IMG/VR virus record: IMGVR_UViG_3300033978_000195
Location: 1-23,998 of that record
DNA from: a virus
Length of the DNA: 23,998 nucleotides
Direction: 5' to 3' (one strand)
Part shown: one piece after another, positions 483 to 23,998 of the stretch
Layout: each line of letters opens with the position of its first letter
Numbering within the stretch: position 1 is the first letter of the stretch
The notes under the pieces: generated by a model
What the model was told of the DNA's origin: nothing
Seen by the model: only the letters and a program-made list of their open reading frames with translations
The model's database searches: none
Program-made: the position numbers and the translations under genes

Positions 483-495
483 AGTTTTATCAACC

Positions 496-516: not shown

Positions 517-533
517 ATTATTAATTATTTCAC

Positions 534-1330: not shown

Positions 1331-1350
1331 ATTACTCAAAATTTTTACTA

Positions 1351-1379
1351 TTGACATTTTAAAACCCTTGTGGTATACT
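1351..1379 (+). promoter_or_regulatory. Sigma70-type extended -10 promoter for the tape measure/tail tip operon (P1)
   Basis: TTGACA (1351-1356), a 17-nt spacer and TATACT (1374-1379), with TGG directly before the -10 giving an extended -10. The spacer contains CCCTTGTG (1365-1372), which recurs at the same distance in the promoter at 21631. It lies about 20 nt after the terminator T run and about 50 nt before the tape measure ATG. No other convincing promoter was seen before 21631, so it probably drives roughly 20 kb of genes. Confidence 0.85.
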
Positions 1380-1431
1380 TGGTGTAATCTCGCTAAAAAT
1401 ATGCGACTAGAAAAATTGATCTGGAGTCCCT
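1380..1431 (+). promoter_or_regulatory. Leader and ribosome binding site of the tape measure gene
   Basis: A short A/T-rich 5' leader with a GGAG Shine-Dalgarno core at 1423-1426, 5 nt before ATG 1432. No riboswitch-like structure was seen. Confidence 0.6.
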
Positions 1432-6537: not shown

Positions 6538-6539
6538 TT

Positions 6540-6902: not shown

Positions 6903-7666
6903 GTAGATTAAATAGGTTATCAGCATCCGCTATTCGTTCTATGTTTTCGTCAGAAACAGACGAAAGCATAATTATGTTAATTGAGATAGAAGACCCAGTA
7001 ACTAATACTGTTAGTGAAATGTTTGCTACTAGTGACGAAGTAAGATTAGTAAATATTACAAACTATAATATTGATGACAATCTTATATTTAGTAGTACAT
7101 ATGGTGGTTTAACTGCTGGTAGAACCTATTATGTTGTCAATATTAACTATAGTACTAGTAGAGTTCAATTAAGTACAACTCCTAGAGGTTCTGTGGTTAA
7201 TATTACAGCAACTGGCTCTGTATCTAATATTACAGCTAAGCGTGTAATAAGAATCGCCGACTCATGGTTAGAGCGACTAGATTATACAACTACTGATGAA
7301 GTAATATATGGCGTAAAAAGCACTATTAGTAGTTTTGAGCGCCAATTTATTTTTATACCAGTCGAAGTTCAATTGCCACAGGAGTCTGAAAGCGGTGAAA
7401 CTAGTTGTAGACTGGTAGTCAATTATGTTACTTCTGAAATGATAGAGCTTATTAGATCATCATTAAATAAGCCTGCAAGTACAAAAATAGAATTAGTATT
7501 GAGTAGTTCACCCAATTATGTAGAAGCAGAATTTAGTAACTTTTTTATAAGTAATGTAAGCTATAATGCTACTCAAATAACTTTTGAACTAAATATGATT
7601 AGTTATAGTAGAGAGCCGTTTCCAGCTTTTAATTTTACGCCAATTTATTTTCCAGGACTATTTTAA
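6899..7666 (+). CDS. DUF1833-type minor tail protein (gpL position) with inserted YYV domain
   Basis: 255 residues, start ATG overlapping the previous stop (ATGA), so probably translated by coupling. The N terminus (residues 1-40, ASAIRSMFSSETDESIIMLI) and the C-terminal half (about 120-255: RIADSWLERLDYTT through PVEVQLPQ to EPFPAFNFTPIYFPGLF) match what I know of DUF1833 tail proteins, which occupy the gpL position at the tail tip. Between them, about residues 42-118, is an extra beta module with DDNLIFSSTYGGLTAG, RTYYVVNI, VQLSTTPRGS and TATGS. This pattern resembles a YYV-type beta module common in cyanophage and marine phage structural proteins. Only one Cys is present (SCRLV), so the C-terminal Fe-S cluster of lambda gpL is absent. 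Function at the tip is inferred from context. Confidence 0.78.
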   Translation: MSRLNRLSASAIRSMFSSETDESIIMLIEIEDPVTNTVSEMFATSDEVRLVNITNYNIDDNLIFSSTYGGLTAGRTYYVVNINYSTSRVQLSTTPRGSVVNITATGSVSNITAKRVIRIADSWLERLDYTTTDEVIYGVKSTISSFERQFIFIPVEVQLPQESESGETSCRLVVNYVTSEMIELIRSSLNKPASTKIELVLSSSPNYVEAEFSNFFISNVSYNATQITFELNMISYSREPFPAFNFTPIYFPGLF

Positions 7667-7668
7667 TT

Positions 7669-10600
7669 ATGTATGATAAATATATTGGAATACCGTATAA
7701 AGAAAACGGTAGAACAGATGACGGCTTAGACTGCTGGGGATTAGTACGCCTATTTTATAAGCAAGAATTTAATATAGATTTACCTAGTTATGAAGATGAG
7801 TATGTTGGCAGCTACGACCCTAAAGTGCCGCAAACTATAAATTATTATAAAGATAGCTGGTCTAAAACAATGTCTCCTAAACTAGGAGACATTTGTTTGT
7901 TTAATATACTAGGCGAACCAACTCATGTTGGTATATACTTTGAAAATAACAAGTTTTTGCACGCTCGCGACGGTCATAGTACAGTTATTGAGTCATTATT
8001 ACGACCAGCTTGGAAAAATAGACTAGAAGGTATCTATAGTTATGCTCCAAAGAGCAGCATAATTCAATTAACCGGTAGCCCGCACCCGTTTAAAACGCAC
8101 AGAATTTTAGATTATGCTGCCGCAGGTTTAACTGTAAAACAGTGCGTAGATTATATATGTGAAAAATATAAGGTTAGTGAGAAACTATTTAAACAAATAA
8201 TTGTAGCTGTTGATGGCATAGCTGTACCAAAAGATCGCTGGCAATCTACAATTTTATCAGCTGGTCAAACTGTTACCTATAAAACTATACCACAAGGTAG
8301 AAATGGTTTAAGAACTCTGCTATTTATAGCAGTTGTAATATTTGCCACCGAATATGCCCCTGAAGCCGCAAAAGCAATATTTGGAGCAGAAGTTGGTGCT
8401 AGTTCATTCGCTATTGCAGCAACTAAGGTAGCTATTAGCGCTGCAGGTATTGCACTAGTTAATGCCCTAGTACCTATTAGACCTCCAAAGCTAGAAAATG
8501 CTGACACCGGCCGCCAGTTAAATCTTTTTAATGGTGCTAGTAATAGAGCAAATCAATATGGAGCTATACCAGTAGTGTTGGGCAGAGTTCGTATGACGCC
8601 ACCCCTAGGCAGCGTACCATATGTAGACACACAAACTACTACTAGCTATATGAATCTACAACTAGTTTGGGGCTTTGGACCACTAAATGTAGACATGAAT
8701 GAAATGTATATTGGTGCTAATAAGCTAGATTATTACTACCAAAGTAATAATGCTGATGCTATACCAAAACCAGTAACTATTGCTGGATATGTTAATACTA
8801 GTGGCACAGAATCCGAAACAGATAAGATTACGGAGTTTAACAAACTATACCCAAATATAGTAGAGCAGCAATTTAAAAATGTTGAGCTAGAAAATGACGC
8901 TAGTGGTAATAATGAAGAAACCGTAACCTTTGCAGAAACACAGGCAACTAGAGTACAGGCTATTGTTAGTTTTCCAGAAGGTTTAAGAAAAATTAGTACT
9001 AAAGACGGTAAAAGCAGTTCGTCCGAGGTAACTATTCAAGCTGTATTAGAGAAAGTTAGTGGCGGTAATGCTACAATTATTAATAATTGGACAAGCAGTG
9101 TAGTGTTCGAAGATACGCTTACTGGTCAATCTGTAACAGAATATGATGTAGATGGACAGGGTACAACATATAAATTATATCAAAAAACTGCATATTGCAT
9201 AACCGAAAAAAATGGTATTAAAGCAATTAGAGGTTCTGTTAGTACTACCAAAGGAAATCCTAATAGTACAATTATAGAACTATTAAAACGTAATCAATTA
9301 AGCGAATTATTAAATATACAAAACAATTATTCTTTTGAGCCTGTAATACCTGATGGGCATAAAGTTATTCGCACAGTTATAAATTACAGCACTGACCCAC
9401 TAGATACTACAGATGTTATAACTAATACATATATTTATAATGGGTGGTTATTTACTGCTACAGCCGTACAAGACATGGCATATGATAGTAGTGGTCTTGC
9501 CCTTGGACCAACAGATACAGGCAGATGGAAAATTACTATTGGTCCTGGATCATTAGGCAGTTTAAAATCAGGTGTAACTAGCGAACTAGCACCTACTGCT
9601 GGTGGAGGACTACCAAGCAGAATCACAGTTTGGACTAGTAGACAATTTACCAATGTAATTAATACTACTAATAATGGAGCATGGGGGCCAACTACAGGAA
9701 ACGACCAAAGTTTTATGAATGCTTTTGCTGTATGGAAAGGCACTACTAATACCTTTGATGAACAAATGGTTGTTAATTTTCCATATGAAGGCACTTATAC
9801 TATTCAAGCTAGTATAGACAACTATGCTGGTCAAATAATAATTGGTGATACAGTTATTAATATACCTGACAACTGCTATAGAGCTAAAACAACACTAGCA
9901 TCCGGCAGTGCAGACTATACTACCACAGAATTTTTTAGTGCTGGTAATAAAGTAGTTAGAGTAAAAGCTAGTAATAATGCTGATGAACAAACTGTTACTA
10001 CTGCTGGTAGTAGTAATTGTGGAGTAGCTGTAAGAATACTGTTTATACCAGATAATATAGTTAATTTTGTACCTGGAGCAAATTATATTACTCTAGGAGA
10101 TAATGAATTTAGTAACTACAAAGATGGTTTTAATTATCCTATAACCTGGGATAATCTAGAACCAGGCCAGTACAGAGTAAAATTACGGCGTACAAGCACA
10201 AGCGATCCAGATCATCAAAACGATTATAGACATAACTTTAGGTCGCAATTTTTATCAGCAGCAGCTTTTAAAACTGGTACAACAATAGCACCTCCACCAG
10301 GTATAGGCATTTGTAGAACTGGTATTGTTATTGAAAGTAGTGGCAAAGTTAACGGCAGTGTTGACGGCATAAATGCACTAGTGCAAACAAAAGGTCTAGA
10401 TTATACAACTATTCCAGGTAGTACATCTAAGGGATGGATAGCAGATCAATTAATAGATAATCCCGCTAGTTTATTTGTATATGTCTTAACACATCCTGCT
10501 AATGCCTATAGGGTAGACCCTAGCGATCCATGGAAATATATTGATAGCACAGCAATTACAGAATGGCATCAGTATTGTGACACTCCAGTAGCAGGAGTTA

Positions 10601-12249
10601 GACCAAGGCTAACATATAATGGAGTAGTAACAGATACAACAAGTATATTAAGTATACTTCAAGATATTTGTGCTGCTGGTATGGCTAGCCCTGTATTTAT
10701 TGATGGTAAATGGTCTGTGGTTATCGATAAAGTTCGACCACATGTTATACAGCACTTTACACCACACAATAGTTGGGGATTTGACGCAACAAAAAATTTA
10801 CCAAAGTTACCTGATGCTTTTAGAATAAGTTTTCCTGATGAACGTAATAGTTTTCAAACTACAGAAGTATTGGTAGCAAATTTTAATAAAACTGTTAACA
10901 CCGCAAAAGTAATAGAAGAATTACAGTTACCTGGCATAACAAAAATTGAACAAGTTAGATATTTTGCACGTTGGCATTTTGCTCAGTTACAGTATCGTCC
11001 AGAAGTATTTACTATAAACACAGATTTTGAGTATTTGGTAAGTACCAGAGGCGATAGAGTAAAAGTTACACATGATATTCCTCTATGGGGAAATGGTAGT
11101 GGAAGAATACGCGAAATAAGTACTAATAAATTAGTATTAACTTTAACAGAAGACATAATACTTGAAGCTGGTAAATCATATCAAATAAGAATTAGAACAG
11201 ACAATATTTCAGCAACTATAGGTAGTGGTAGCATAGAAAGAACACTTACAGCTATACCAACAACCGCATCTTATAATTCTATAACCTTAGCATCAGCAGT
11301 TGATAGTACAGTTAAAGTTGGCGATTTATTTATGCTAGGCGAAGTTAATAAAGTTAGCCAAGATTTATTGATTCAAAGCATAGAGACCACCAGTAATACT
11401 TCAGCTAAATTAACTTTAGTAGAATATACTGAAAGTTTATATAATTTTTCTTTTGATCCGTTTAACGATGCAACACCTTCTATGCCAAGTTATACACCCA
11501 TAATAACAAAGCGCATAGCCAGTGAAGCTGTTCAAAATACTATTGTTGGTACACCTAAAATAATTAGCATGTCTAGTGATAGTTCTTTAAGCGAAGAAAT
11601 TGCAACTGGCAGCTATCAGAACATAACTATTGTTACTTGGGAAAATGCTGCAAATTTACCTGTAATAGCTGAGCAAGTAGAGTTTCAAATCGTTTTAGGC
11701 AATGAGAGTTTTACTGACACTAAACAAGTAGGTGTTTATACTACAAGAAAAGATGCTGTAAGTATTACTATTAAAGGCCTAGAAACAGATAAAGTATATA
11801 AGGCACGGGCTAGATATAAGAATGGGTCAGGATCTATAGCAGGTCCGTGGAGTGATGAATTTGGCAGCACTATTACTGGAAAAACTACAAATTCATTTAC
11901 ACCAAATGATGTTATGATAACATTACAGGGAACAAATATTATTGTTAAGCCTATTCTAAGCACTGGAAATAGTGAGCCTAGCGATCATAAAACCTATGAA
12001 TTTAGACTCTACAGAAATACTGGTACCGGAGATTTTTGGACAGCTACTTGGGACAGTACTAATATGTTAAAAGCTCAAAGCAGAACCCAAGCCGTATTTA
12101 ACTTGCTAGATTTACCAAGTACTAATGGTAATAGACGTATTAGTCAAACCGGAATAAATTATAGAGTAGCTTGCAGAGCCCTTAGTAACACAAATAGTTA
12201 TAGTTCAACTAGTGTTTTAGGTAGTATATTAATTAAGACGATTCAGTAA
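7669..12249 (+). CDS. Tail tip fusion: NlpC/P60 peptidase + gpI-like + gpJ-like host specificity protein
   Basis: A 1526-residue protein that combines three lambda functions. Residues 1-128 are an NlpC/P60 cysteine peptidase (gpK C-terminal type): Cys22 in LDCWGLV, His86 in PTHVGIYF and a third polar residue His98 in FLHARDG. It would cut peptidoglycan stem peptides during injection or assembly. No JAMM metalloprotease domain of gpK is visible. Residues 130-207 look like the gpI beta-grasp region, followed by hydrophobic helices at about 214-227 and 240-265. From about 276 (GRQLNLFNGASNRANQYGAIPVVLGRVR) it reads as a gpJ-type central tip protein, with the gpJ-like segment GDRVKVTHDIPLWGNGSGRI near 1125-1145. 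A lectin-like insertion spans about 648-800. The C terminus (about 1315-1526) has fibronectin type III-like sequence. It starts 2 nt after the gpL-like stop; AGGA at 7654-7657 is a weak ribosome site. Confidence 0.9.
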   Translation: MYDKYIGIPYKENGRTDDGLDCWGLVRLFYKQEFNIDLPSYEDEYVGSYDPKVPQTINYYKDSWSKTMSPKLGDICLFNILGEPTHVGIYFENNKFLHARDGHSTVIESLLRPAWKNRLEGIYSYAPKSSIIQLTGSPHPFKTHRILDYAAAGLTVKQCVDYICEKYKVSEKLFKQIIVAVDGIAVPKDRWQSTILSAGQTVTYKTIPQGRNGLRTLLFIAVVIFATEYAPEAAKAIFGAEVGASSFAIAATKVAISAAGIALVNALVPIRPPKLENADTGRQLNLFNGASNRANQYGAIPVVLGRVRMTPPLGSVPYVDTQTTTSYMNLQLVWGFGPLNVDMNEMYIGANKLDYYYQSNNADAIPKPVTIAGYVNTSGTESETDKITEFNKLYPNIVEQQFKNVELENDASGNNEETVTFAETQATRVQAIVSFPEGLRKISTKDGKSSSSEVTIQAVLEKVSGGNATIINNWTSSVVFEDTLTGQSVTEYDVDGQGTTYKLYQKTAYCITEKNGIKAIRGSVSTTKGNPNSTIIELLKRNQLSELLNIQNNYSFEPVIPDGHKVIRTVINYSTDPLDTTDVITNTYIYNGWLFTATAVQDMAYDSSGLALGPTDTGRWKITIGPGSLGSLKSGVTSELAPTAGGGLPSRITVWTSRQFTNVINTTNNGAWGPTTGNDQSFMNAFAVWKGTTNTFDEQMVVNFPYEGTYTIQASIDNYAGQIIIGDTVINIPDNCYRAKTTLASGSADYTTTEFFSAGNKVVRVKASNNADEQTVTTAGSSNCGVAVRILFIPDNIVNFVPGANYITLGDNEFSNYKDGFNYPITWDNLEPGQYRVKLRRTSTSDPDHQNDYRHNFRSQFLSAAAFKTGTTIAPPPGIGICRTGIVIESSGKVNGSVDGINALVQTKGLDYTTIPGSTSKGWIADQLIDNPASLFVYVLTHPANAYRVDPSDPWKYIDSTAITEWHQYCDTPVAGVRPRLTYNGVVTDTTSILSILQDICAAGMASPVFIDGKWSVVIDKVRPHVIQHFTPHNSWGFDATKNLPKLPDAFRISFPDERNSFQTTEVLVANFNKTVNTAKVIEELQLPGITKIEQVRYFARWHFAQLQYRPEVFTINTDFEYLVSTRGDRVKVTHDIPLWGNGSGRIREISTNKLVLTLTEDIILEAGKSYQIRIRTDNISATIGSGSIERTLTAIPTTASYNSITLASAVDSTVKVGDLFMLGEVNKVSQDLLIQSIETTSNTSAKLTLVEYTESLYNFSFDPFNDATPSMPSYTPIITKRIASEAVQNTIVGTPKIISMSSDSSLSEEIATGSYQNITIVTWENAANLPVIAEQVEFQIVLGNESFTDTKQVGVYTTRKDAVSITIKGLETDKVYKARARYKNGSGSIAGPWSDEFGSTITGKTTNSFTPNDVMITLQGTNIIVKPILSTGNSEPSDHKTYEFRLYRNTGTGDFWTATWDSTNMLKAQSRTQAVFNLLDLPSTNGNRRISQTGINYRVACRALSNTNSYSSTSVLGSILIKTIQ

Positions 12250-12255
12250 GGAAGG
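12248..12255 (+). promoter_or_regulatory. Strong Shine-Dalgarno of the fibre gene
   Basis: AAGGAAGG begins inside the stop codon of the tip protein and sits 3 nt before ATG 12259. It is the strongest ribosome site in this operon and suggests the fibre is made at higher level than the tip protein. Confidence 0.6.
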
Positions 12256-12258
12256 TAT

Positions 12259-15200
12259 ATGTCACTAACAGTAAATAGCGGCCCAAAAGCCTTATACCTT
12301 TATTTTACGCAGCCTTTTAACGCTGTTGACATTGATGATAATTCCACTACCGGCACACTGCAGGTAGCGGACGTCTCTGTTCGTGATGATTTGCAGGGTT
12401 TAAAGGTATGGATAAGTGAAACTAGTGGCTTTACTCCTGCAGCAGGCAATTTAGTATTTGATGCTGGTTTTCAAAGCATAGTACCACTAACTGATCTTAA
12501 AAATAATACTACATATTATATTAAATATGCTTTTGTTAGTAAAATAGATCCAGATGAGTACACTACGTCAGCACAAATTACTGCTACAACATTAGATACT
12601 GCACTACCTATTAGTGGGTTTTTAAATCGCGATCCTATTCAAATACCTACAGATAGTGATGGTAATAATGCTGTATTTACTAATGCTACAGGAACCTTTG
12701 TTGTTTACAATTTGAGCACAAATGTTACTGGAACAGCAGCTGTAACATATAGTGTTGTTAGCGGTAGTTCAGTAGGTGGAGTATCTGCTACTATAGCTAG
12801 TACAGGTGTGTATACGATTACAGGTATTACCGATTTAGTAGGTACTATTACCCTACGTGCAGTTTATACAAATCCGCAAAATAATAGCGAAACATATTCT
12901 ATAGATCTAGTATTAAATGTTAGTAAACAGCGTCCAGGTAGTACTGCACCTATTGTATTATTAACTAGTACAGGACAAGCATTTGTAAAAGCAAAAAATA
13001 ATGGTACAATTAGTCCTAGTAGTATTACTTTTGATGCTACAATAGCTAATATAGCTGGCGCAACTTATAAATGGTATGCAGATGGCGTATTAATTAATGG
13101 TGCAACTAGTTCAACATATACACTAAGTAGTTTTAGTAATACAAGCACAAAGCTAATAAAGGTACGAGTACAAAGTACTGTAGTCGCTACCATTGACGTG
13201 TTCGATCAAATGAGTGTATATTATCTCGAAGAAGGTAGTGATGCACTCAATGCTGCACTTGTAAATGAGAATCAAACTGTTACATTAAATGCAGCCGGTA
13301 CTGTACTTAGCGGACTACCTGTTTCTAGTCAAATGGTAGTAGCTAGAGGTAGTACTATATTAACTAGTGGAGTTACTTATAGTTTGGTTAGTAGTAGTAA
13401 TTTAACTAATCCAACAATAGATAGCTCTACTGGTATAATTTCAATACCAACAATTGCCAATCTTGCCCTTGATACTGCTAGCGCAACTTTTAAAGCTACT
13501 GTGGGTACTGCCGAGTTAACTAAAACTCTTAGTATCAGTATTGTACAAGATGGTAGAGCCGCAGTTATTAATATAGGCACTGTTACTACGAGTAATCCCG
13601 GCTCAGCTGCTACTGTTACAAATAATGTAACAGATGGCGGAGCTACAAATACTATAGACATAAGTATACCTAGAGGTAATACAGGTGCTCCTGCAAAAGG
13701 TATAGATATACTTGGAGCTACTGCAGTTAGTTTTAAACGTAGCTCAGCAGGAGTATACACTCCTGCTAATTCTGGAACCTTAACAGCTAGTCCTCAGAAC
13801 TTAGTTAGCCCCACATATAATTGGACAGTTAGTGGAGGAAGTTTTAGTAGTAGCAGTGCAGTTACTAGTAGTAGTGCTACTAGTGTAACAGTATATCCTA
13901 TGGATACAAGTAGCGTTATCGTAACACTGCAAGCCACAGCTGAAAGTATAGTCTACAATAAAACATTATACTATAGCATAGTAGCTGATGGTGTAGGCAC
14001 TAATGGGAAAAGAACAGCTACTGGTGTTGTTTATAAAACCGCTTATACAACTGATGATACAGTTCCAGCAACTCCCACAGCTACCAGCTTTACTTTTAGT
14101 ACAGCAGTATTTACTGGAGGAACTATTGGAGATGGTACTTGGAGTAAGGCTGCACCAACATTTGTGGCTAATAATACCTACAGATATTGGGTAGCATCAT
14201 TTACAGCCTTAGAAGGTGATACTGATACAACTACTGGAACTGGTGGTAGTCTTACTTTTGGTACACCTACAAAAGCAGTCGGATTTAGTGGACTAGTTAC
14301 GTTTAGTAGCGGTACGCAAGTAACGGATGGTACTAATACTATTGCTGGGTTCAATAATCAAACACAGATTGATGGCGGGCAGATAACCACAGGAAGCATT
14401 TTAGCAGCAAGAATAGATACCAGAAATTTAACTATTAAAGATACTAATGGTAATATACTATTTGGATCGGGTACAGCACTTGACTGGAGTAATATAAGTA
14501 GTAGTTATCCTAGTGCAATAGATAATAGTAGCGTTACAGCTACTAGTCTAGGAGCAGTTAAAACTGATTTAACTAATGCTCCGGCAGAAATATTAAATAG
14601 TAATATTACCGCTACTAGTCTAGGTGCAGTCAAAGTTGATCTAAGCAATGCTCCAGCAGGAATATTAAATAGTAATATTACTGCCGTTACTATAGGTGCA
14701 GTTAAAACTGATTTAACTAATGCTCCAGCAGGAATATTAAATAATAATTTATATATTAGTAAAACAGGTGCAGTTTATTCACTACAAGGTGGTGGTACAA
14801 GCACCTCTATTGATGCCGTAGGGTTAGCGGCAGTAAAAACTGATCTAACTAATGCCCCATCAGACATATTAAATAGTAATGTGACAGCAACTAGTATTGG
14901 TGCAGTTAAAACTGATTTAAGTAATGCACCTGTGGGAATACTTAATGGACAAATTAGTATAACAGAGACTAATGGCGTAGTAACATTAAGCAATGCTGGT
15001 ACTGGATCTTTTACTACTATTACTTCGAATAATAAAATTAGTTCTACTAATGTAGCTACTTTTATGCAAGAAGCAGCAATAGGAGAAGCATATATTGGAA
15101 GTATTAGCGCCGGAAAAATAACTACAGGAACATTAGATGCAGCTAGAATTGGAGCAGGTAGTATAGATGCCGGAAAATTAGTTATTGGTAGTACTGGCAG

Positions 15201-15282
15201 CGGAAGTTATATGAGATTGTTTAATAATAAAATAGAAGTATATGACGGTAATGTTTTACGCGTTAAAATAGGATTATTATAA
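12259..15282 (+). CDS. Tail fibre protein, FN3/Ig-like with 24-residue repeats
   Basis: A 1007-residue acidic, Thr/Ser/Asn-rich fibre. Residues 1-118 are fibronectin type III-like (GLKVWISETSG through NNTTYYIKYAFVS). Cadherin/Ig-like beta domains follow at about 120-225 and 228-335. A short collagen-like linker (ISIPRGNTGAPAKG) lies near 468-482, then another Ig-like domain with YPMDTSSVIVTLQATAES. Near 703-735 is GGQITTGSILAARIDTRNLT, and 24-residue repeats fill about 759-898. The end (about 950-1007) repeats the same theme (KITTGTLDAARIGAGSIDAG, then KIEVYDGNVLRVKIGLL). This C-terminal pattern is common at the distal part of gpJ-type central fibres. The gene probably represents distal gpJ sequence encoded as a separate protein that joins the tip. 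It overlaps the next gene by one base (TAATG). Receptor specificity is inferred, not visible. Confidence 0.82.
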   Translation: MSLTVNSGPKALYLYFTQPFNAVDIDDNSTTGTLQVADVSVRDDLQGLKVWISETSGFTPAAGNLVFDAGFQSIVPLTDLKNNTTYYIKYAFVSKIDPDEYTTSAQITATTLDTALPISGFLNRDPIQIPTDSDGNNAVFTNATGTFVVYNLSTNVTGTAAVTYSVVSGSSVGGVSATIASTGVYTITGITDLVGTITLRAVYTNPQNNSETYSIDLVLNVSKQRPGSTAPIVLLTSTGQAFVKAKNNGTISPSSITFDATIANIAGATYKWYADGVLINGATSSTYTLSSFSNTSTKLIKVRVQSTVVATIDVFDQMSVYYLEEGSDALNAALVNENQTVTLNAAGTVLSGLPVSSQMVVARGSTILTSGVTYSLVSSSNLTNPTIDSSTGIISIPTIANLALDTASATFKATVGTAELTKTLSISIVQDGRAAVINIGTVTTSNPGSAATVTNNVTDGGATNTIDISIPRGNTGAPAKGIDILGATAVSFKRSSAGVYTPANSGTLTASPQNLVSPTYNWTVSGGSFSSSSAVTSSSATSVTVYPMDTSSVIVTLQATAESIVYNKTLYYSIVADGVGTNGKRTATGVVYKTAYTTDDTVPATPTATSFTFSTAVFTGGTIGDGTWSKAAPTFVANNTYRYWVASFTALEGDTDTTTGTGGSLTFGTPTKAVGFSGLVTFSSGTQVTDGTNTIAGFNNQTQIDGGQITTGSILAARIDTRNLTIKDTNGNILFGSGTALDWSNISSSYPSAIDNSSVTATSLGAVKTDLTNAPAEILNSNITATSLGAVKVDLSNAPAGILNSNITAVTIGAVKTDLTNAPAGILNNNLYISKTGAVYSLQGGGTSTSIDAVGLAAVKTDLTNAPSDILNSNVTATSIGAVKTDLSNAPVGILNGQISITETNGVVTLSNAGTGSFTTITSNNKISSTNVATFMQEAAIGEAYIGSISAGKITTGTLDAARIGAGSIDAGKLVIGSTGSGSYMRLFNNKIEVYDGNVLRVKIGLL
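14533..14952 (+). repeat. Five 72-bp (24-residue) coding repeats in the fibre gene
   Basis: Units at 14533-14604, 14605-14676, 14677-14748, 14809-14880 and 14881-14952, with a 60-bp unrelated insert at 14749-14808. The protein consensus is xTATSxGAVKTDLTNAPAGI plus LNSN. The DNA of the units is also close, mainly third-base changes, pointing to duplication. Such short repeats usually form repetitive trimeric beta shafts. Confidence 0.85.
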
Positions 15283-15617
15283 TGGCTACAACATATGGCC
15301 TACAATTATTTGATACTGCAGGATTACTAGAACTGGATTCTAGTTCTAGTATAAATGCTGGAGTATTTGTTAGAAGTATAACAATACCTTCAACTGGTAA
15401 CAGTACAATACTTTTTAATGGACAGGCACAAGGATCTTTTGGTACTCTGCCTAATCTAGTTAACAGAACAATATTTTGGATAACGTTATTAAATGGAGAC
15501 CAGGATATTAGACTATATACTAGTCCAGAATCATATCCTGGCATACAATATTCTCAGTTAAGTAGCTCAGATTTAGGAACAAGGAGAACAAGTACTATAC
15601 TTGTTTTTGTAAGATAA
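15282..15617 (+). CDS. Small YGLQ-type tail protein
   Basis: 111 residues, beginning MATTYGLQLFDTAGLLELDS. The YGLQxF(N/D)xxGxxxxD start is shared with the N terminus of the following giant fibre and with an internal segment of it, so the three copies are paralogous. The rest is beta-rich (VFVRSITIPS, FWITLLNGDQDIRLY, TSTILVFVR). I associate this opening with small phage minor tail or fibre-attachment proteins, but no function is established from sequence. It overlaps both neighbours by one base (TAATG at 15280-15284 and 15615-15619), so the three genes are translationally coupled. It could be a cap or adaptor between the fibre at 12259 and the Calx-beta fibre. Confidence 0.65.
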   Translation: MATTYGLQLFDTAGLLELDSSSSINAGVFVRSITIPSTGNSTILFNGQAQGSFGTLPNLVNRTIFWITLLNGDQDIRLYTSPESYPGIQYSQLSSSDLGTRRTSTILVFVR

Positions 15618-18600
15618 TGGCATACGGATTACAAAGTTTTAATAACGCTAACGAATATTTATTAGATAGCGACTACCCTAAACCGTGGTTTCATGCAAAA
15701 GCTACACTATATGGGCCTACAACAACAGGCCCATATACTGTTAAGTTTAGAGAAGGTGACGGTAGCGGTGGCTCTACACAGTTAGAGTTTAGAGCTTATA
15801 CATTAAATTATACTGCACCTAATCACGGCGTTAATCAAAAAACTGGATTTGCACTAATAACCATGCCAAATACTGAAATTTGGTATGCATGCGATAATTA
15901 TTGGCAATCTGGAATTAATGGTGCTTTTACAATATATGCATTAGTTCCTAGTACATATAATAATCCAGACGGTAGTTATAAAGAAGGCAGTAGTGATATA
16001 CCAGAAGTATATCTATTTTGTCACGAACATATTAATTTAACTAGTAGCAGTGGTACTTATGGTATGCAGATGTTTAATGCTGCAGGCCTATGCACGTTTG
16101 ATACAGGTCAAAAAATATTTAGACCTGTTGAAGGACAGCTATTGTATCATCCATATCCTAGTTTACGTGCAAGTATAGCTACGGCCAATCCTATTATTGA
16201 TACAGTATTTCCATATGTGCCTGGTGGTACACCTACTAGTTTTAATTTTGGTTATACCTTTTCAAAACCAATATTTTATTTACCTAAACTGTATTCTACT
16301 ATTAGTGCACCAGCAGTTGGTGGCAGAGCTAATCAGTATCAGGTGCAAGTAGGAGATCCTTATTTTATTTTTGAGGCAATGTCATTTTATAGACGTACTA
16401 GCGCCACACAAGTTGCTATAAAGCCTTATCTTAGAAATATTATATTTGAACAGGAATCCATAGGAACATTTCAATATTCTGTAGATGGTGCTGGCCAAGG
16501 ATTTATTATTATTTCTGATGGTAATAGGTATCCTGTTACTAGCGGCGGAACTTTTCCTTCTGCTACCTATAATATTACTGCTACTCCTAGTTCACCTAGT
16601 GAAGGCACACCGTTTACTATAACTATAAGTACTACTAATGTTCCAGCCGGTACAACATTTAATTATATGATGACAGGTAGTACTCTACTATCTATAGATC
16701 TTAATGTACCGCTAACAGGCACAATTACTATTGGTTCAAATGGACAAGCTACAATTACTCCTATAACAGCACTAATAGATGAATTTGATGACACAGAGCA
16801 AGTTGATTTTGTTCTTAAAGATAGTGTAACAGACGAAATAGTTAAAATATTTACTTTTACACTTACAAATACTCCAGCTCCAGCTGCTAGCTATGTATTG
16901 TCAAAGACTCCAGCTACTGGTGCTATTAGTGAAGGTAGTAGTTTTACTATTAGAGTAGATACTACATATGTTGCTGTAGGAACTCAATTAGGTTATACTG
17001 TTAGCGGATTGGATAGTTTAGATGGTAGTAATGTAGCTACTAGTGGAACATTTCCTGCCATACAAGGTACATTTCAGAGTGGTTATACAGAGAAAACTTT
17101 TTATACTACAGCAGATAATAGAACAGACGGTCAAAAAACTTTTACACTTATACTAACCGCAACTGGTCAAACAATACAAATAGTTATTAATGACACTAGC
17201 CAGTTTCCTACACAGGGAACTATGGTTAATTTAACAACTGCTACTTCTAGCAGAGACGAGGGACAAACAGCTACTGTTAGAGGCGATTGGGATTTCAATC
17301 AGTATACTTATGATAATAGGACCTTTAAATTACAAATAGCTAGTGGTAGTACAGCTAATAGTAGTGATGTAACAATTAGTCCAAGTGGATTTGTAACTCT
17401 TACTACCGTTTATAGTGGTGGAGAAATATTATCTATTTTTAGAAATTGGTCAGTTAGCATAACTAACGACTTAACTACTGAAGCTGGTAGCCCAGAAACA
17501 TTATTGCTTGAATTAGTAGACGCTAATGGTAGTGTTTATGATACACAAAGTATTACAATAAATGATACTAGTCAAACTCCTGCACCTACAGTATCGCTAT
17601 ATAGTGCGAGTCCTAGTGTTGATAGTGGTACTGGTTTAATATACTTAAATGAAACTACTACTAAAACTTTAAGCTTAACAGTTACATTAGATTTTACCGT
17701 AGCCAATGTACCAGTTTACTGGAAAACAAATGGCAGCGCAAACTTTACTAGTGCAGATGTAGATACTAGTTTAAGTGGAACTATTTATACTGTTGTAGGG
17801 CAAGTACAAAGAACACTACCAGATATTACAATTAAAACCGATTATACAACTGAAATTACAGCAGAAAGTTTTAGTATAGGATTTTATAGTGATAGCAGTT
17901 ACACTACACTATTATATCAAAGCCCAACAGTAAGTGTTAATGACACTAGCCAAACGCCAACATTAAATATATCCAATGTTTCAATAACGCCTAATCCCGT
18001 AGACGAGGGAAATAGTACTAGTATTGTATTTACTATACAAGATAGCGTAGTTCAAAGTATTTACTTTAAAATAGTAGGCGGAGCTGGTTTTAGCACAGGA
18101 GATGTATCTAGCTATACGCCAGCAACGAACACTTTTCAAAGTGCTACCGGGGCGGGAGCGCAACAAACAATTACAGTAACATTAAATGCCGATGCTACAA
18201 CAGAGGGCACAGAGCAATTTTATATTTATTTCTTTACTGCAGGTACTTGGAATAGTGGCAGCCCTGTAGACTCTAATCGTTGGGGGCTAATAGGACCAAT
18301 AAATGTTAACGATACTAGTACAACTCCTATAGTTAGAACATTTACCCGCAGCGTTAGCGAAGTAAATGAAGGAGGTAGTTTTAGTATAACATTTACAACT
18401 AACCAGGCTGGTAGCTTTAATTATAGTATTCTTGGAGTAAGTAGTGCAGATATAGGTGGTGCTAGCTTAACTGGTACAGTTAGTAATGGTACAGTATTAA
18501 ACTATACAGCTAGTTCTGATAGTGCAACTGAAGGCGACGAAACCTTTACTATTAGATTAGATTCGTATACTGATGTAAATACTAGTGTAATAATTAGAGA

Positions 18601-21478
18601 TACTAGTTTAACACCAGCACCTAGCGCAGCATCAATATCACTAAATACTCTTGGACAAAGTTTAAGTGGTGGTTATATAAGCAGTGGAGTCTATTGGGTA
18701 ACATGGACCCTAAGCAGCCAAACTACTATAATCTTTAGTACTGAACATGAACTACCCATAGGTGCAACTGGTGTAGATACCAGTATAGCTGTATATAATA
18801 GCAGTGGAATATTGCAGCACACATCTGGAGCAGGTGATGACGATGGTATAGACAATCGCGGCGTTAATTATAGTAGTAGATTATCGCTAACACTAGCAGC
18901 TGGAACTTACTATGGTGCTATAGGAGTTTACTCTGGATCCTATACTTTTAGTAATTATTGGACAGTGTCAGGATTTTCTGCAACAACCCTAAACAATAAT
19001 ATTAGTAATATACGTGTTAGTTTATGGACTGGTACCCCTCAGCCACAATTACAAGGTGTTAGTGCGCCTAGTAGCGTTAATGAAGGTGATACCGCCACAT
19101 TTAGTTTCACGCTATTAGATACCACAGACAGAACACTATACTGGAGAATTGTTGGTACTAATACTAGTGCCGGTGATTTTACCAGCAGTACTAGTGGCAG
19201 TTGGGCTAATCAGTGGCCTAGAAGCTCACAAAATCTTAGTGTTAGTATAGCAGCAGATTCTACAACTGAGTCTACTGCAGAAAGCTTTAAGTGGCAACTA
19301 TCAACTACTAGTAATTTTAGCGATATATTTTATGATACAGCCAGTTCAGCAACTAGTACAACTATAAATGATACCAGTCAAACACCAGTACCTTCCTGGA
19401 GTTTTGGTACACCACCTGCAGAAATACATGAAGGCGTTACATATGGTATAGCCTTTTTTGCAAGTAATTGGTCTGGAAATACAGCATACTTTTACTTAGT
19501 TGGTCCTAGCAGTGGTACAAATGCTAGTGGTGAAGTTAGCTTACTAACTAGCAGCACGTATGTTAATTCTAACTATATAGATGTGCAAGTAAACTTTACA
19601 GCAACACAAGACTATAACACAGAAGCTGACGAATTTTTTAGAATAGAAGCTAGAAACAGTGCAGGAACAGTTTTGGCTACTAGTAGTAATATTAAAATTA
19701 TTGCTAAAGGTGCACCTAATTATTACTTTGGAGCTATTCCAGATCCAATGAATGAGGGCACCACTTATAGCGTAACATTTACAGCTGAAAATATTAGAAA
19801 CACTACTTTTACGTTTCAAACAATAGCTCCTACAAGCGGAACAAATGCTAGTGCTGAGGTAAGTATTAGCCCCTCAAGCTGGACTTCATCTAGTAGCAGC
19901 GATAGTAGTAGCGTTACGCTTAGTATTACACCAACAGCAGATGGAGTAATAGAATTAGACGAATATTTTAGATTTGGTGCCTATATTGGTGGGTCACTTG
20001 CCACAGGCACAGGAAATATTAGAATACCAGGAGATGGAGCAGCACCTAGTGGAACATTTAGTGTTAGCCCTAGTACCCATACTGGTGTAGCAAATATTTA
20101 TGGTGATTGGTCTATTAGCGGTAATCCTACGCCGTCTGTAAGAATTGACAGCGATCAAGGCTATCAGGCAACTAGCTTAGGTACACAAGGAAGCAGTTTA
20201 TTAGAAACTAACGTAGCTCAAACTACTACTTATACACTTACAGCAACTAATGCATTTGGTACACTTACTATTAATAGTACTTCAACAGTACCAGGTGTTA
20301 GCGCTACCCTAAGTGCAAGTCCTAGTACAATTACTGCTGGTCAATCTAGTACACTAAGCTATACAACTACAAATGCTACATATGCAAACATTAATAATGG
20401 TGTAGGCGGGATTACTGTAGGAAGTGGCAGTGTTGTTGTATATCCTACTTCAACTACAACTTATACCCTTAGTGCTTTTAATGCTCAAAATAGTGGCAGC
20501 GCTCAAGCAACGGTTACAGTAAATCCTGCTAGTGGTACCTACTTAAGTCAATACTGTAGTGGTTATACACTGTACTATCGCTATGCTAATGGCTCTGGTG
20601 GATATTATGATCAGGTTCAGGAATACAACAGCCCAACTTGTGGATATGTAGCACCTCCACCTCCTCCGCCGCCACCTCCACCTCCTCCGCCACCTCCACC
20701 TGCGCTAAGTACTAGTAATTCGTATGTAAGCCCAGCTAACCCAACTAGTCAATATTTTAGTATTATAGTAGGATTAGATCAGCCAGCAACTACAACAGTA
20801 TATTTAAATGCTAGTATTACATTTAGAAATAGTGGCGGCGGTATAACTGCAGGTCCAAATAATGTGTCTAATATTGGACAAATTAATCCAGGATCTCAGA
20901 CGTTTACCTATACTGCAAATGGTGCAGATGGTTGGACAAATGCAGATAGTACTGGTTGGTATAACCGTATTGATTGGACTTCTAATGAGGCACCAGGTAC
21001 GGCAACAACAACTTTTTACTACTATTGGGCACCACCTCCTCCACCACCTCCACCACCTCCTCCAGCACCACCACCGCCAGCTCCACCACCCCCTCCACCG
21101 CCTCCTCCACCACCTCCACCCCCACCTCCGCCACCTGCAAGTGGCCCAGTATATGTAAGCTATAATATTACTGGAGGCGATAACGCTACTAATAATACTG
21201 TTAATGTAAGTCTATTTTTAGTAGCTGGACAAACGTTGCAGGCAGGTACTGGACCAACTGGTGCAAGCTGGGCTCCTGGTATAGTGTGGAATGGTACTGA
21301 TAGTTATATAAGACTAGTAAACGGTTCTGGTACTACTGTTATTGTTGATGATGACGCCGCTGGTGGCTTAGCATCTTATTTTTCTTATAGTGTGTCAAGT
21401 ACTGGTAATTATACACTAAAATTTGGTGCATATAATAATAGTAATGCTAGCGGTACAGGAGCATATAGAATCACTTAA
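15617..21478 (+). CDS. Giant modular fibre/adhesin with Calx-beta-like repeats and polyproline hinges
   Basis: 1953 residues. Residues 1-315 hold two YGLQ-type units (AYGLQSFNNANEYLLDS; TYGMQMFNAAGLCTFDTG near 148), likely the virion attachment end. From about 318 to 1470 there are about nine Calx-beta-like domains of roughly 100-125 residues, each with an SEG or NEG turn at the start (PSEGTPFTI, ISEGSSFTI, VDEGNSTSI, VNEGGSFSI, VNEGDTATF, MNEGTTYSV), a late TTEG/TTES acidic turn, and often ending NDTSQTP. A different domain sits at about 1000-1145 (GDDDGIDNRGVNYSS, LAAGTYYGAIG), PPC/DVUA0089-like. Then come two Ig/PKD-like domains (about 1475-1642), a Cys-pair module (YCSGYTLYYR to SPTCGY), 16 prolines (1680-1695), a roughly 110-residue beta domain, a Pro/Ala tract (1806-1840), and a terminal PPC-like domain. 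No signal peptide, so it is virion-borne, probably a side fibre. Calx-beta folds often bind calcium, which is plausible here but unproven. Confidence 0.82.
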   Translation: MAYGLQSFNNANEYLLDSDYPKPWFHAKATLYGPTTTGPYTVKFREGDGSGGSTQLEFRAYTLNYTAPNHGVNQKTGFALITMPNTEIWYACDNYWQSGINGAFTIYALVPSTYNNPDGSYKEGSSDIPEVYLFCHEHINLTSSSGTYGMQMFNAAGLCTFDTGQKIFRPVEGQLLYHPYPSLRASIATANPIIDTVFPYVPGGTPTSFNFGYTFSKPIFYLPKLYSTISAPAVGGRANQYQVQVGDPYFIFEAMSFYRRTSATQVAIKPYLRNIIFEQESIGTFQYSVDGAGQGFIIISDGNRYPVTSGGTFPSATYNITATPSSPSEGTPFTITISTTNVPAGTTFNYMMTGSTLLSIDLNVPLTGTITIGSNGQATITPITALIDEFDDTEQVDFVLKDSVTDEIVKIFTFTLTNTPAPAASYVLSKTPATGAISEGSSFTIRVDTTYVAVGTQLGYTVSGLDSLDGSNVATSGTFPAIQGTFQSGYTEKTFYTTADNRTDGQKTFTLILTATGQTIQIVINDTSQFPTQGTMVNLTTATSSRDEGQTATVRGDWDFNQYTYDNRTFKLQIASGSTANSSDVTISPSGFVTLTTVYSGGEILSIFRNWSVSITNDLTTEAGSPETLLLELVDANGSVYDTQSITINDTSQTPAPTVSLYSASPSVDSGTGLIYLNETTTKTLSLTVTLDFTVANVPVYWKTNGSANFTSADVDTSLSGTIYTVVGQVQRTLPDITIKTDYTTEITAESFSIGFYSDSSYTTLLYQSPTVSVNDTSQTPTLNISNVSITPNPVDEGNSTSIVFTIQDSVVQSIYFKIVGGAGFSTGDVSSYTPATNTFQSATGAGAQQTITVTLNADATTEGTEQFYIYFFTAGTWNSGSPVDSNRWGLIGPINVNDTSTTPIVRTFTRSVSEVNEGGSFSITFTTNQAGSFNYSILGVSSADIGGASLTGTVSNGTVLNYTASSDSATEGDETFTIRLDSYTDVNTSVIIRDTSLTPAPSAASISLNTLGQSLSGGYISSGVYWVTWTLSSQTTIIFSTEHELPIGATGVDTSIAVYNSSGILQHTSGAGDDDGIDNRGVNYSSRLSLTLAAGTYYGAIGVYSGSYTFSNYWTVSGFSATTLNNNISNIRVSLWTGTPQPQLQGVSAPSSVNEGDTATFSFTLLDTTDRTLYWRIVGTNTSAGDFTSSTSGSWANQWPRSSQNLSVSIAADSTTESTAESFKWQLSTTSNFSDIFYDTASSATSTTINDTSQTPVPSWSFGTPPAEIHEGVTYGIAFFASNWSGNTAYFYLVGPSSGTNASGEVSLLTSSTYVNSNYIDVQVNFTATQDYNTEADEFFRIEARNSAGTVLATSSNIKIIAKGAPNYYFGAIPDPMNEGTTYSVTFTAENIRNTTFTFQTIAPTSGTNASAEVSISPSSWTSSSSSDSSSVTLSITPTADGVIELDEYFRFGAYIGGSLATGTGNIRIPGDGAAPSGTFSVSPSTHTGVANIYGDWSISGNPTPSVRIDSDQGYQATSLGTQGSSLLETNVAQTTTYTLTATNAFGTLTINSTSTVPGVSATLSASPSTITAGQSSTLSYTTTNATYANINNGVGGITVGSGSVVVYPTSTTTYTLSAFNAQNSGSAQATVTVNPASGTYLSQYCSGYTLYYRYANGSGGYYDQVQEYNSPTCGYVAPPPPPPPPPPPPPPPPALSTSNSYVSPANPTSQYFSIIVGLDQPATTTVYLNASITFRNSGGGITAGPNNVSNIGQINPGSQTFTYTANGADGWTNADSTGWYNRIDWTSNEAPGTATTTFYYYWAPPPPPPPPPPPAPPPPAPPPPPPPPPPPPPPPPPPASGPVYVSYNITGGDNATNNTVNVSLFLVAGQTLQAGTGPTGASWAPGIVWNGTDSYIRLVNGSGTTVIVDDDAAGGLASYFSYSVSSTGNYTLKFGAYNNSNASGTGAYRIT
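20654..20701 (+). repeat. Polyproline tract 1 (16 Pro codons)
   Basis: Sixteen consecutive CCN codons (CCT, CCA and CCG mixed) encode residues 1680-1695 of the giant fibre, directly after the Cys-pair module. Mixed codons limit replication slippage. The template strand is a GGN repeat. Confidence 0.95.
21032..21136 (+). repeat. Polyproline tract 2 (11P-A-4P-A-18P)
   Basis: Thirty-five codons encode residues 1806-1840, 33 prolines with two alanines. It links the penultimate beta domain to the terminal PPC-like domain. It is in the same codon phase as the tract at 20654, so recombination between them would delete the domain in between in frame. Confidence 0.95.
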
Positions 21479-21781: not shown

Positions 21782-22126
21782 ATGGATGCTGTAGAGAATA
21801 ACAGCCTGATACAAACTATTAGTGTAGCAGGAATGGCCTTAATTGCCCTAGGCGTAGGTATACAAAAATTAGTAAAAGAGTGGCGTAGTACCGATGCAGA
21901 AACCAGTGTTATTAAAATGATGCACGAGGAGTTAGAGCGTATGGGTACACAAAATGCTAAGCTCACTGAGGAACTAACTAAGTTGCAAAATGAGATTGTA
22001 GAGCTAAACACTCAGCTAACTAAGTTAAGTATAGAAAATAATAAACTTCAACAAGATATAGCAGCACTAACAACTGAACTTAACAGTTTTAAGAAGTTAG
22101 CAGCAATAAGAAAGGTAAAGGTGTAA
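21782..22126 (+). CDS. Membrane-anchored coiled-coil protein, unknown function
   Basis: 114 residues. Residues 9-29 form one hydrophobic helix (LIQTISVAGMALIALGVGI) after a short acidic N terminus, followed by a basic stop (QKLVKEWR). Residues 44-105 are a long coiled coil with Leu/Ile spacing (LTEELTKLQNEIVELNTQLT) and a basic tail (AAIRKVKV). The predicted topology is a single N-terminal membrane anchor with a cytoplasmic or periplasmic coiled coil. It is the first gene of the operon driven by the 21631 promoter and is preceded by GAGGAG. Its place ahead of fibre genes is unlike a lysis cassette, and no partner holin, endolysin or lipobox is seen, so spanin or holin calls are not supported. 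It may aid tail fibre assembly or act at the membrane. I do not recognise a named family. Confidence 0.75.
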   Translation: MDAVENNSLIQTISVAGMALIALGVGIQKLVKEWRSTDAETSVIKMMHEELERMGTQNAKLTEELTKLQNEIVELNTQLTKLSIENNKLQQDIAALTTELNSFKKLAAIRKVKV

Positions 22127-22127
22127 C

Positions 22128-22727
22128 ATGACAATGACACCTGCTAAAATTAATTATAAGATTTATCAGGGTAGTACTTTTAAAGAAGTCTATCGCTGGG
22201 AATCGCAAACTAAACAGTATGCTAACATTAGTGCTATTACAAAAGCAGCACCTTGTGTAATTACTACTAGTGCAAATCACGGTATTCCTAGTGGTTGGCG
22301 TGTGCGCGTTACAGGTGCAGGCGGCATGAAAGAAATTAACATGACTGCTGAAGATAGTTACTATATTGCTACTGGTGCAGGCAATAATACTATAACCCTA
22401 AACCAAGTAAATAGTGCAGGCTATACAACTTATACTAGCGGCGGTGTTGTAGAGTGGAATACTCCAATACCACTAACAGGTTTTACAGCTAAAATGCAAC
22501 TACGTGAAACTATTGATAGTTCAGTAATACTAGAACTTACACACCTAAATGGTGGTATATCAATAGATACCGCAAACTATACAATTACAGTAACAATGAC
22601 CAGCGCACAAACTGCGCTATTTAATTTTCCCACAGCAATTTATAGCCTAGAACTAACTGATAGCAACGGCGACGTAACAACATTTATTCAAGGCAACCTA
22701 ACCTTAATACAGGAGGTTACACGATGA
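22128..22727 (+). CDS. BppU-like tail/baseplate protein with an inserted E1-FCCH-like domain
   Basis: 199 residues, starting 1 nt after the previous stop. ATG 22134 is an alternative start two codons later. The outer parts, residues 1-30 (KINYKIYQGSTFKEVYRWES) and 111-199 (PIPLTGFTAKMQLRETIDSS, then IYSLELTDSNGDVTTFIQGN and LIQEVTR), fit the BppU N-terminal-like fold of phage upper baseplate or fibre adaptor proteins. Residues 31-110 interrupt it with an independent module: ITTSANHGI, VRVTGAGGMKEIN, NTITLNQVNSAGYTTYTSGG. This is the pattern I associate with the ubiquitin-activating E1 FCCH-like domain frequently found in phage tail proteins. It probably links the fibre at 22977 to the tail. 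It overlaps the next gene by ATGA. The family names come from motif memory, not a search. Confidence 0.75.
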   Translation: MTMTPAKINYKIYQGSTFKEVYRWESQTKQYANISAITKAAPCVITTSANHGIPSGWRVRVTGAGGMKEINMTAEDSYYIATGAGNNTITLNQVNSAGYTTYTSGGVVEWNTPIPLTGFTAKMQLRETIDSSVILELTHLNGGISIDTANYTITVTMTSAQTALFNFPTAIYSLELTDSNGDVTTFIQGNLTLIQEVTR

Positions 22728-22963
22728 CAACTGAGGTAATTGTCACCGAGAAAAACAATCAAGTAGTTATTGAACGTAAAGAGCCTCAGGTTGTAGTTGC
22801 CGGTTTAATGGGTCCCGCTGGTGCTACGACTATACAGGCTATGACTGACATAGATTTAACTAACTTAACAAATGGCGGACTCTTAGTATATCAAACCTTA
22901 GTACAAAAATGGGTAGCAACCACAACGCTTGATGCCCAGAATATGGAAGGTGGCTATTATTAA
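22724..22963 (+). CDS. Small fibre-associated protein with collagen-like turn
   Basis: 79 residues, overlapping the previous gene by ATGA. The N terminus has two beta strands (EVIVTEKNNQVVIERKEPQV) and then a short GPAG collagen-like turn. The C-terminal half, DIDLTNLTNGGLLVYQTLVQ followed by KWVATTTLDAQNMEGGYY, resembles the conserved tail of small proteins placed just before fibre genes in many phages. It is probably a trimerisation or joining piece between the BppU-like adaptor and the large fibre. There is no catalytic motif. The GGAG at 22966-22969 just after its stop serves the next gene. Confidence 0.7.
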   Translation: MTTEVIVTEKNNQVVIERKEPQVVVAGLMGPAGATTIQAMTDIDLTNLTNGGLLVYQTLVQKWVATTTLDAQNMEGGYY

Positions 22964-22976
22964 TCGGAGATAAGAA

Positions 22977-23998
22977 ATGGCTTCAATTATTCGTATCAAG
23001 CGTTCTAGTACTGCCCTAGCTCCCTCACTAGCAAATGGTGAATTAGCTTATAGTGCAGGTACTGGTACACAAGCAAACGGCGGTGACAGACTATATTTTG
23101 GTTTTGGAAACGAAACCAATGGTATTGCTGCTAGCCAGTATGTAATCGGTGGTAAATACTTTACTGACCTGTTAGATCACGTACACGGTACAGTCACAGC
23201 AAGCAGTGCTGTTATTGTTGATAGTAGCAAAAAGGTTGATGAGTGGAATGTTGACAACATTACCATCAATGCCAATACTATTAGCAGTACAGATACTAAT
23301 GGAAATATCGTACTTACACCTAATGGCACAGGATATGTTAGCGTATCTGGTACAAATGGTTTAAAGATACCTGTTGGTACAACTGCTCAGCGCAGCCCAG
23401 CAGTGCAGGGCACTGTTAGATATAACACAGATACTTCAAGTTTTGAAGGTTACAATGGTGCTCAGTGGGGTTCACTAGGCGGCGTAAAATCTGTAGATGG
23501 TTATACCTATATTATAGCAGAAACTACACCAGGTGCTAGTGATGGTGTCCTACACTTCTATGCAGAAAATGCTGCTGGCAATGCTGCTGTAGAGGTTGCT
23601 CAACTAGATCGTACAAAATTAAATGTACTACCAATTACAGCAAGCACAAGCACAACAACTGGTGCACTTACAGTGGGTGGTGGTGTTGGTATTGCTGGTG
23701 CAGTATTTGCTGGCGGTGTCTTAACAATTACAGATGCAACTAATGCTGGCCCTACAGTACAAACTGGCGCCCTAGTAGTCAATAATGGTGGTGCCTATAT
23801 TATGGGCAACATGCGTGTTGGTGGCACACTATACGCAACACTTAGTGGCAGTGTAATTAATAATACTAGTATTGGTAGTACCGCAGCTAGTACAGGCGCA
23901 TTTACAACACTAACAGCTAACGACAGCGTAACTTTTACTAAGAACGCTGGCAGTACAAGCTCAACTAGTGGTACGCTAGTAGTTACTGGTGGTGTTGG
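22977..23998 (+). CDS. Repetitive tail fibre protein, 3' end beyond the window
   Basis: Open from ATG 22977 (GGAG at 22966-22969) to the last base, 340 codons and no stop. The N terminus MASIIRIKRSSTALAPSLAN is followed by GELAYSAG, a frequent start of phage fibres that attach to the tail. Near residues 115-170 are TPNGTGYVSVSG and TVRYNTDTSSFEGYNGAQWG, a common fibre motif. From about residue 222 a module repeats: STSTTTGALTVGGGVGIAG (from about 23639), a weaker copy around QTGALVVNNGGAYIMGNMRV, then STAASTGAFTTLTAND, and GSTSSTSGTLVVTGGVG at the window edge. I know this repeat from T4-like cyanophage and other marine phage fibres, which can be very long. It is probably a receptor-contacting or structural fibre. 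The full length cannot be judged. Confidence 0.85.
   Translation, partial: MASIIRIKRSSTALAPSLANGELAYSAGTGTQANGGDRLYFGFGNETNGIAASQYVIGGKYFTDLLDHVHGTVTASSAVIVDSSKKVDEWNVDNITINANTISSTDTNGNIVLTPNGTGYVSVSGTNGLKIPVGTTAQRSPAVQGTVRYNTDTSSFEGYNGAQWGSLGGVKSVDGYTYIIAETTPGASDGVLHFYAENAAGNAAVEVAQLDRTKLNVLPITASTSTTTGALTVGGGVGIAGAVFAGGVLTITDATNAGPTVQTGALVVNNGGAYIMGNMRVGGTLYATLSGSVINNTSIGSTAASTGAFTTLTANDSVTFTKNAGSTSSTSGTLVVTGGV

Follow-up and report, generated by a model that had tools for sequence, protein, structure and literature searches.

A predicted phage tail fibre with nine tandem Calx-beta-like domains of a distinct subfamily

The window analysed here, 23,998 bases that make up a complete IMG/VR virus record, encodes a protein of 1953 residues (fibre B) in which nine Calx-beta-like domains form an array interrupted by one foreign module. 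Taking the evidence as a whole, we consider it likely that fibre B is a tail fibre of a lambda-like (siphovirus-type) phage, that the array would form a calcium-binding stalk made of DTS-type Calx-beta domains of a phage subfamily, and that the fibre block moves between phages as a cassette.

Fibre B and its tail gene setting

The plus strand carries, in order, the end of a major tail protein gene, tail chaperone genes, a tape measure gene (1432-6537), two minor tail genes, a gene that joins NlpC/P60 and lambda tail I domains to a J-like tail tip protein (7669-12249; Pfam), the fibre A gene (12259-15282), a gene for 111 residues, the fibre B gene (15617-21478), a gene for a coiled protein of 114 residues, a PHROG 1084 gene and another virion gene. 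No RNA families or tRNAs were found in the window. The position of fibre B in a tail module, near the tail tip gene, is that of a tail fibre, and the protein is presumably located on the virion.

Several observations concern the neighbouring genes. The NlpC/P60 peptidase, lambda tail I and J-like tip domains make up one ORF of 1526 residues; in phage lambda, K, I and J are separate genes. The nearest cultured relative of this gene is in Curvibacter phage P26059A (35% identity over 68%). Fibre A, a central-fibre-like protein of 1007 residues encoded directly 3′ of the J-like gene, has an N-terminus that is kept in related phages, and at 14524-14965 it contains tandem repeats of about 24 residues, of the N(I/V)TATSLGAVKTDLTNAPAGILNS type, which show as multiple self-overlapping matches. 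The PHROG 1084 protein (22128-22727) matched the E1_FCCH domain below threshold (E = 0.0023) and also the PHROG 584 major tail protein (2.6e-6).

Fibre B is read in a single frame and consists of an N-terminal region, the nine Calx-beta-like domains with one DVUA0089-like interruption, two Ig-like domains and C-terminal domains linked by poly-proline. The N-terminal region (residues 1-314; 15617-16558), the presumed virion attachment part, opens with MAYGLQ, and a similar start recurs at residue 146, which resembles the product of the 111-residue upstream gene (phmmer, iE 1.7e-4). This region had no database matches, and neither it nor full-length fibre B found a match among 50,697 phage records (tblastn). 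Searching the PDB with the sequence of the whole fibre returned only proline-rich chance hits, which were rejected. In agreement with an earlier note on this DNA, no signal peptide was seen when the N-terminus, MAYGLQSFNNANEYLLDSDYPK..., was judged by eye, and the start lacks a hydrophobic stretch. Beyond the array lie two Ig-like domains of another kind, d11 and d12 (20039-20530; phmmer; I-set E = 0.12), d12 having three counterparts in the fibre of locus L013 (3.1e-22, 8.9e-14 and 1.1e-12). A first poly-proline linker of 16 Pro (20654-20701) is followed by a C-terminal domain with no Pfam match (20708-21028), a second linker of 11 Pro, Ala/Pro and 18 Pro (21032-21136) and a C-terminal DVUA0089-like domain (21161-21475; NF038127 E = 0.017), a candidate tip domain that is shared with the C-terminus of the L013 fibre (phmmer 5.1e-13). 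The three proline runs (16, 11 and 18 Pro) use mixed CCN codons, and their length is unchanged in the related locus L001.

The domain array and its Calx-beta kinship

We derived the domain boundaries from the sequence by start and linker motifs. The array covers 16559-20038 and comprises d1 (16559-16879), d2 (16880-17203), d3 (17204-17581), d4 (17582-17959), d5 (17960-18328), d6 (18329-18616), d8 (19040-19387), d9 (19388-19711) and d10 (19712-20038), all on the plus strand and 96-126 residues long. Between d6 and d8 lies d7 (18617-19039), a DVUA0089 (FDP)-like module (NCBIfam NF038127, E = 1.4e-4, below cut-off) with a homologous segment in the fibre of locus L012 (phmmer 6e-5). The earlier note had described a long array of about nine Calx-beta-like domains over this span; the number was borne out, and the array turned out not to be continuous. 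A start of the (S/N/D/H)EG type was present in 8 of the 9 domains (d4 has NET), and the acidic turn of the D-x-(T)TE type was intact in six (d3-d6, d8 and d9) and changed in d1, d2 and d10. Only d3, d4 and d8 are followed by the exact NDTSQTP linker, with the variants NDTSQFP after d2, NDTSTTP after d5 and RDTSLTP after d6, and linkers of this type are missing from d1, d9 and d10. Across the aligned array domains, E15 (of EG) and D74 (of the turn; d1 numbering) are invariant.

A test HMM built without any sequence from the window or from its near-identical copies L001 and L002 recovered all nine domains, with independent E-values of 1.7e-18 to 5e-7 (Z = 1000). The same HMM matched none of the other window ORFs tested, nor d7, d11 or d12, and gave 0 matches when the array was shuffled 1,000 times with its composition preserved. 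These results confirm that the nine-domain array is not a product of chance. Compared to this profile, Pfam was weak: Calx-beta matched fibre B with E = 8.4e-5 and 23 bits, below the gathering cut-off of 27, no window domain reached the gathering score, and the PF03160 search of the virus record gave no match above threshold. A profile made of the nine domains alone matched antibody chains, and the wider phage family was used in its place.

This family, gathered by two motif scans of IMG/VR and an iterated profile, holds 600 domains in 194 ORFs of 173 fetched loci, with 1-33 domains per ORF and the consensus PTYSLTPSATSVNEGSSVTFTVTTTNVANGTTLYWTITGTTVSSADFSASLSGSFTINSNTGSFTVTIAADSTTEGTETFTVSLRTGSASGTIVATSSSVTINDTSTTP; as a set collected by motif, it shows wide spread and not how common the domain is. 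It probably represents a phage Calx-beta subfamily marked by a C-terminal edge and linker of the form I-N-D-T-S-x-T-P. Family domains occur in the cultured cyanophages P-SSM2 and Sf-FP1, in proteins annotated as virion structural or hypothetical, with 34-42% identity of the repeats of this type to a family member from locus L021, and PHROG 1922 (baseplate hub/tail lysozyme) was matched by 27 of 78 family tandems. A far larger array was seen in locus L173, where an open frame of 4131 residues (1-12393) that starts or ends at the end of the locus contains 33 family domains.

The kinship of the family with Calx-beta was supported by profiles, and consecutive domains were predicted to fold as beta-sandwiches; both are among the checks that the earlier note had called for. 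Against the PDB, the family profile found Drosophila CALX CBD12 (3rb7 and 3rb5; E 0.004) and NCX1 (E 0.015 and weaker), with alignments that stay in register between about profile position 20 and the D of 'ILD'; the best PDB match (0.0015) was another Ig-repeat protein, poorly aligned. PF03160 was matched by 20 of the 78 phage-family tandems (E ≤ 0.01), the best at 6.5e-9. Of the bacterial genomes sampled, 68 of 399 from Pseudomonadota and 37 of 198 from Bacteroidota also had ORFs that the profile matched. Eight of these ORFs were checked: by Pfam, six contain 6-10 Calx-beta domains (E down to 1e-160), and two (L213 and L232) had a phage-like DTS ending and no Pfam Calx-beta. AlphaFold2 predicted confident beta-sandwiches for both a tandem (pLDDT 89.4) and a single domain (90.4). 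With the tandem, Foldseek placed NCX1 CBD12 (3us9) second among PDB matches (4.5e-7), other Ig-like proteins scoring similarly; two-domain TM-scores to CBD12 were only 0.29-0.36, so that the relative orientation of the domains differs or is uncertain. For the single domain, the best two-way TM-scores among the matches listed were those of NCX CBD1 (0.57/0.57 and 0.56/0.53), with an E-value that is not significant; the PDB structure search with this domain gave no significant match, and other Ig folds outranked CBD1 by E-value.

On the strength of profile homology to accepted Calx-beta members (the NCX/CALX CBDs and bacterial proteins), we conclude that the window domains are members of the Calx-beta superfamily, within a distinct subfamily. 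With Calx-beta (PF03160; CBD1-CBD2 of NCX1/CALX and bacterial surface proteins) they share this homology, the beta-sandwich model, tandems with short linkers, and the order and spacing of the equivalents of NCX1 E385, D421, D447, E451, E454 and D498. They differ in scoring below the Pfam cut-off and in having DTS in place of the C-terminal D(N/D)D, without the D499/D500 interface pair.

Origin and exchange of the fibre block

The earlier note had found the array more like a bacterial giant adhesin than a typical phage fibre, and had thought the capture of adhesin modules from a host plausible. The first idea is not upheld by the wide occurrence of the domain in phage contigs and the tail-module setting; the marks of a giant adhesin (a signal peptide or an RTX/T1SS C-terminus, in a bacterial genome) were not found in this virus record with tail genes, the signal peptide being looked for by eye, and no RTX match was obtained in the window (Pfam and NCBIfam). 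That the phage took a bacterial adhesin array from its host has on its side the existence of bacterial Calx-beta arrays, which the same profile detects in Pseudomonadota and Bacteroidota, and yet phage relatives were nearer for all nine domains: outside near-identical copies, the best match of each was a phage domain (22-115 bits, the top one being d6 to L021 with 114.5 bits), compared to at most 22 bits for the sampled bacterial domains. The closest sequences found are thus in phages, within a limited bacterial sample. The DTS linker speaks against capture as a phage signature, the INDTxQTP pattern lying inside a family domain in 60 of the 64 viral loci that have it and giving, in 84,980 bacterial and archaeal genomes, 17 matches, none of them inside a family domain. 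A further point against it is that L021, which belongs to the same phage group as the window by its downstream PHROG 1084-type gene, has an array with several near-identical successive domains, pointing to duplication. We give the capture of an array from the host hardly any credence.

A sharp junction marks the left edge of the fibre block. Similarity steps of 30 nt place a recombination junction inside the J-like gene at 11889-11890, at about codon 1407 of 1526. To its left the sequence is L012-like (87-100% per 30 nt) and to its right L015/L002-like (mostly 83-100% per 30 nt). Over longer stretches, similarity between L012 and the window is 91-98% per 500 bases from position 1 as far as about 11,950; past this point L012 carries another fibre A and B, in which there are two Calx-like domains and a C-terminus of a different kind. 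L001 and L015 reach at most about 78% before 11,890 and then 91-100% to about 22,000, and in L002 and L015 this cassette sits on a different backbone. Every record here is a metagenome assembly and the similarity flips abruptly, within 30 nt, as an assembly chimera would have it; such an artefact is nonetheless highly unlikely, since L005, an independent assembly from a separate metagenome record, reaches about 1 kb past the junction in a stretch (6189-12901) of 99.985% identity, and since the cassette recurs on the other backbone in L002 and L015. The fibre block, along with the final ~120 codons of the J-like gene, has been swapped between phages with different tail tips.

The cassette is itself uneven. 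Similarity to L001 falls to 78-85% over about 1 kb (22001-23000) and returns to 97% after 23,001, which indicates that the right cassette edge is itself mosaic. Within fibre B, a tract in d5-d6 (18001-18500) has 94% identity to L001, the rest being 99-100% identical. This tract, with 19 synonymous and 9 non-synonymous codons, is a second, internal exchange; outside d5-d6 the two fibres are set apart by the deletion of one residue and by two changed codons, one synonymous and one non-synonymous. Compared to L002, changes occur throughout fibre B (140 synonymous to 31 non-synonymous codons), and their mostly synonymous nature indicates that fibre B is under purifying selection.

Calcium-ligand positions and the predicted stalk

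In NCX1 CBD1, the calcium ligands are E385, D421, D446, D447, I449, E451, D498, D499 and D500, and E454 belongs to the Ca1 site (PMC3386913). Two of these residues, D499 and D500, serve in the interdomain lock (PMC4746289, PMC3386913): the pair binds R532 in the domain that follows and makes the link between calcium and rigidity (PMC4746289). We compared the phage family at the equivalent positions and found acidic residues at E385 in 99%, D421 in 96%, D447 in 98%, E451 in 97%, E454 in 89% and D498 in 99% of the domains (profile positions E14, D46, D71, E75, E78 and D104), with the D+4E+3E+2F spacing being the same in the family and in NCX1. The D446 equivalent is mostly A, D499 is T in 87% and D500 is S in 98%; in the sampled bacterial domains, D446 is acidic in 32%, D499 is N or D in 75%, and D500 is D in 58% of the few that extend to this position. 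In the window, all six acids are present in five of the nine domains (d3, d4, d5, d6 and d8), and the set is incomplete in d1, d2, d9 and d10, the last two lacking the C-terminal Asp motif. Judged by these residues, calcium binding within the domains is plausible, and by analogy with NCX1 sites Ca1-Ca3 may be filled and Ca4 empty.

The earlier note had suggested calcium-dependent stiffening of the fibre, and had named acidic residues at the interdomain calcium positions as the feature that should be present. The six ligand-equivalent acids agree with this and the interface does not: the D498 equivalent stays Asp in 98% of the family, and D499/D500 are replaced by T/S. With this pair missing, NCX-type stiffening is not supported by the sequence, and an interdomain effect of that style is at most weakly suggested; another linker mechanism is possible.

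Two other accounts of the acids have to be weighed, and each of them strikes us as possible but rather unlikely. The fibre could be a calcium-switched rigid rod, as in NCX CBD12 and RTX adhesins, with calcium at the domain ends locking neighbours and with both stiffness and adsorption depending on calcium. The conserved acids and the very short interdomain linkers argue for it, as do the NCX calcium sites, which adjoin the interdomain linker and through which calcium rigidifies CBD12 (PMC4746289), and the RTX adhesin extenders, which use linker calcium for the same end (PMC7493085). The T/S residues at the interface positions, the four window domains with part of the acid set lacking and the non-Calx module that breaks the array all count against such a rod. 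The domains might equally be plain Ig-like spacers or weak carbohydrate-binding decorations that bind no calcium, the acids playing a structural part through hydrogen bonds or salt bridges. Ig-like domains of many types serve as spacers in phages, and part of the acid set has been lost from d1, d9 and d10. The CBD2 sites of NCX can be stabilised without calcium, with K585 at the E454 position (PMC4746289), but K stands at that position in only 4% of the phage family, and an acid cluster kept at 89-99% in very diverse phage domains would repel itself without a cation.

We favour a stalk of calcium-stabilised domains. The N-terminus of fibre B would dock to the tail tip, and nine tandem Ig-like beta-sandwiches would bridge the distance to the cell. 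In most of them, the conserved E...D...D-xxx-E-xx-E...D cluster would probably bind one to three calcium ions, calcium mainly stabilising each domain and perhaps also restricting the linkers, though the NCX residues that do so are not kept. The poly-proline linkers would space the C-terminal domains, the putative receptor-facing end that would touch the receptor. Such a stalk could grow, shrink and diversify by domain duplication and replacement, and the exchange of the fibre block is as expected of a host-range cassette.

Several known systems resemble this arrangement. The cyanophage virion repeats (Prochlorococcus phage P-SSM2, Synechococcus phage Sf-FP1 and PHROG 1922) belong to the same domain family but come from other phages and hosts, the full window fibre being without counterpart in the phage records searched. 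The extenders of RTX adhesins (MpIBP, MhLap and SiiE) are alike in principle, as strings of beta-sandwiches with short linkers that present distal domains (PMC7493085), whereas the window fibre is encoded by a phage, has no RTX/T1SS part, and has a putative role for calcium. T4 Hoc-type Ig-like fibres and crAss-like BACON arrays also string Ig-like domains on phage proteins (PMC10385173, PMC6949934), but of other domain families and at other virion positions. In the open literature, searched by title and abstract, no description of Calx-beta in phage proteins was found, and the phage DTS subfamily is, provisionally, apparently undescribed.

The domain type, the Ig-like stalk role and mosaic or swapped fibres are already known in kind, and existing ideas on Ig-like stalks and fibre swapping are not overturned. 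What the results add is that many phage contigs have this domain in unnamed proteins, for which the Calx-beta kinship and the acid cluster provide a testable role, that of a calcium-stabilised stalk, and that the sharp cassette junction offers a natural experiment for asking which part of the tail determines host range. A broader proposal, which we put forward as speculative and doubtful, is that aquatic phages widely use the phage-specific DTS-type Calx-beta subfamily as calcium-loaded extendable stalks that grow by duplication and travel as cassettes. If this were true, calcium in the environment would adjust how far the adsorption apparatus of many uncultured phages reaches and how stiff it is.
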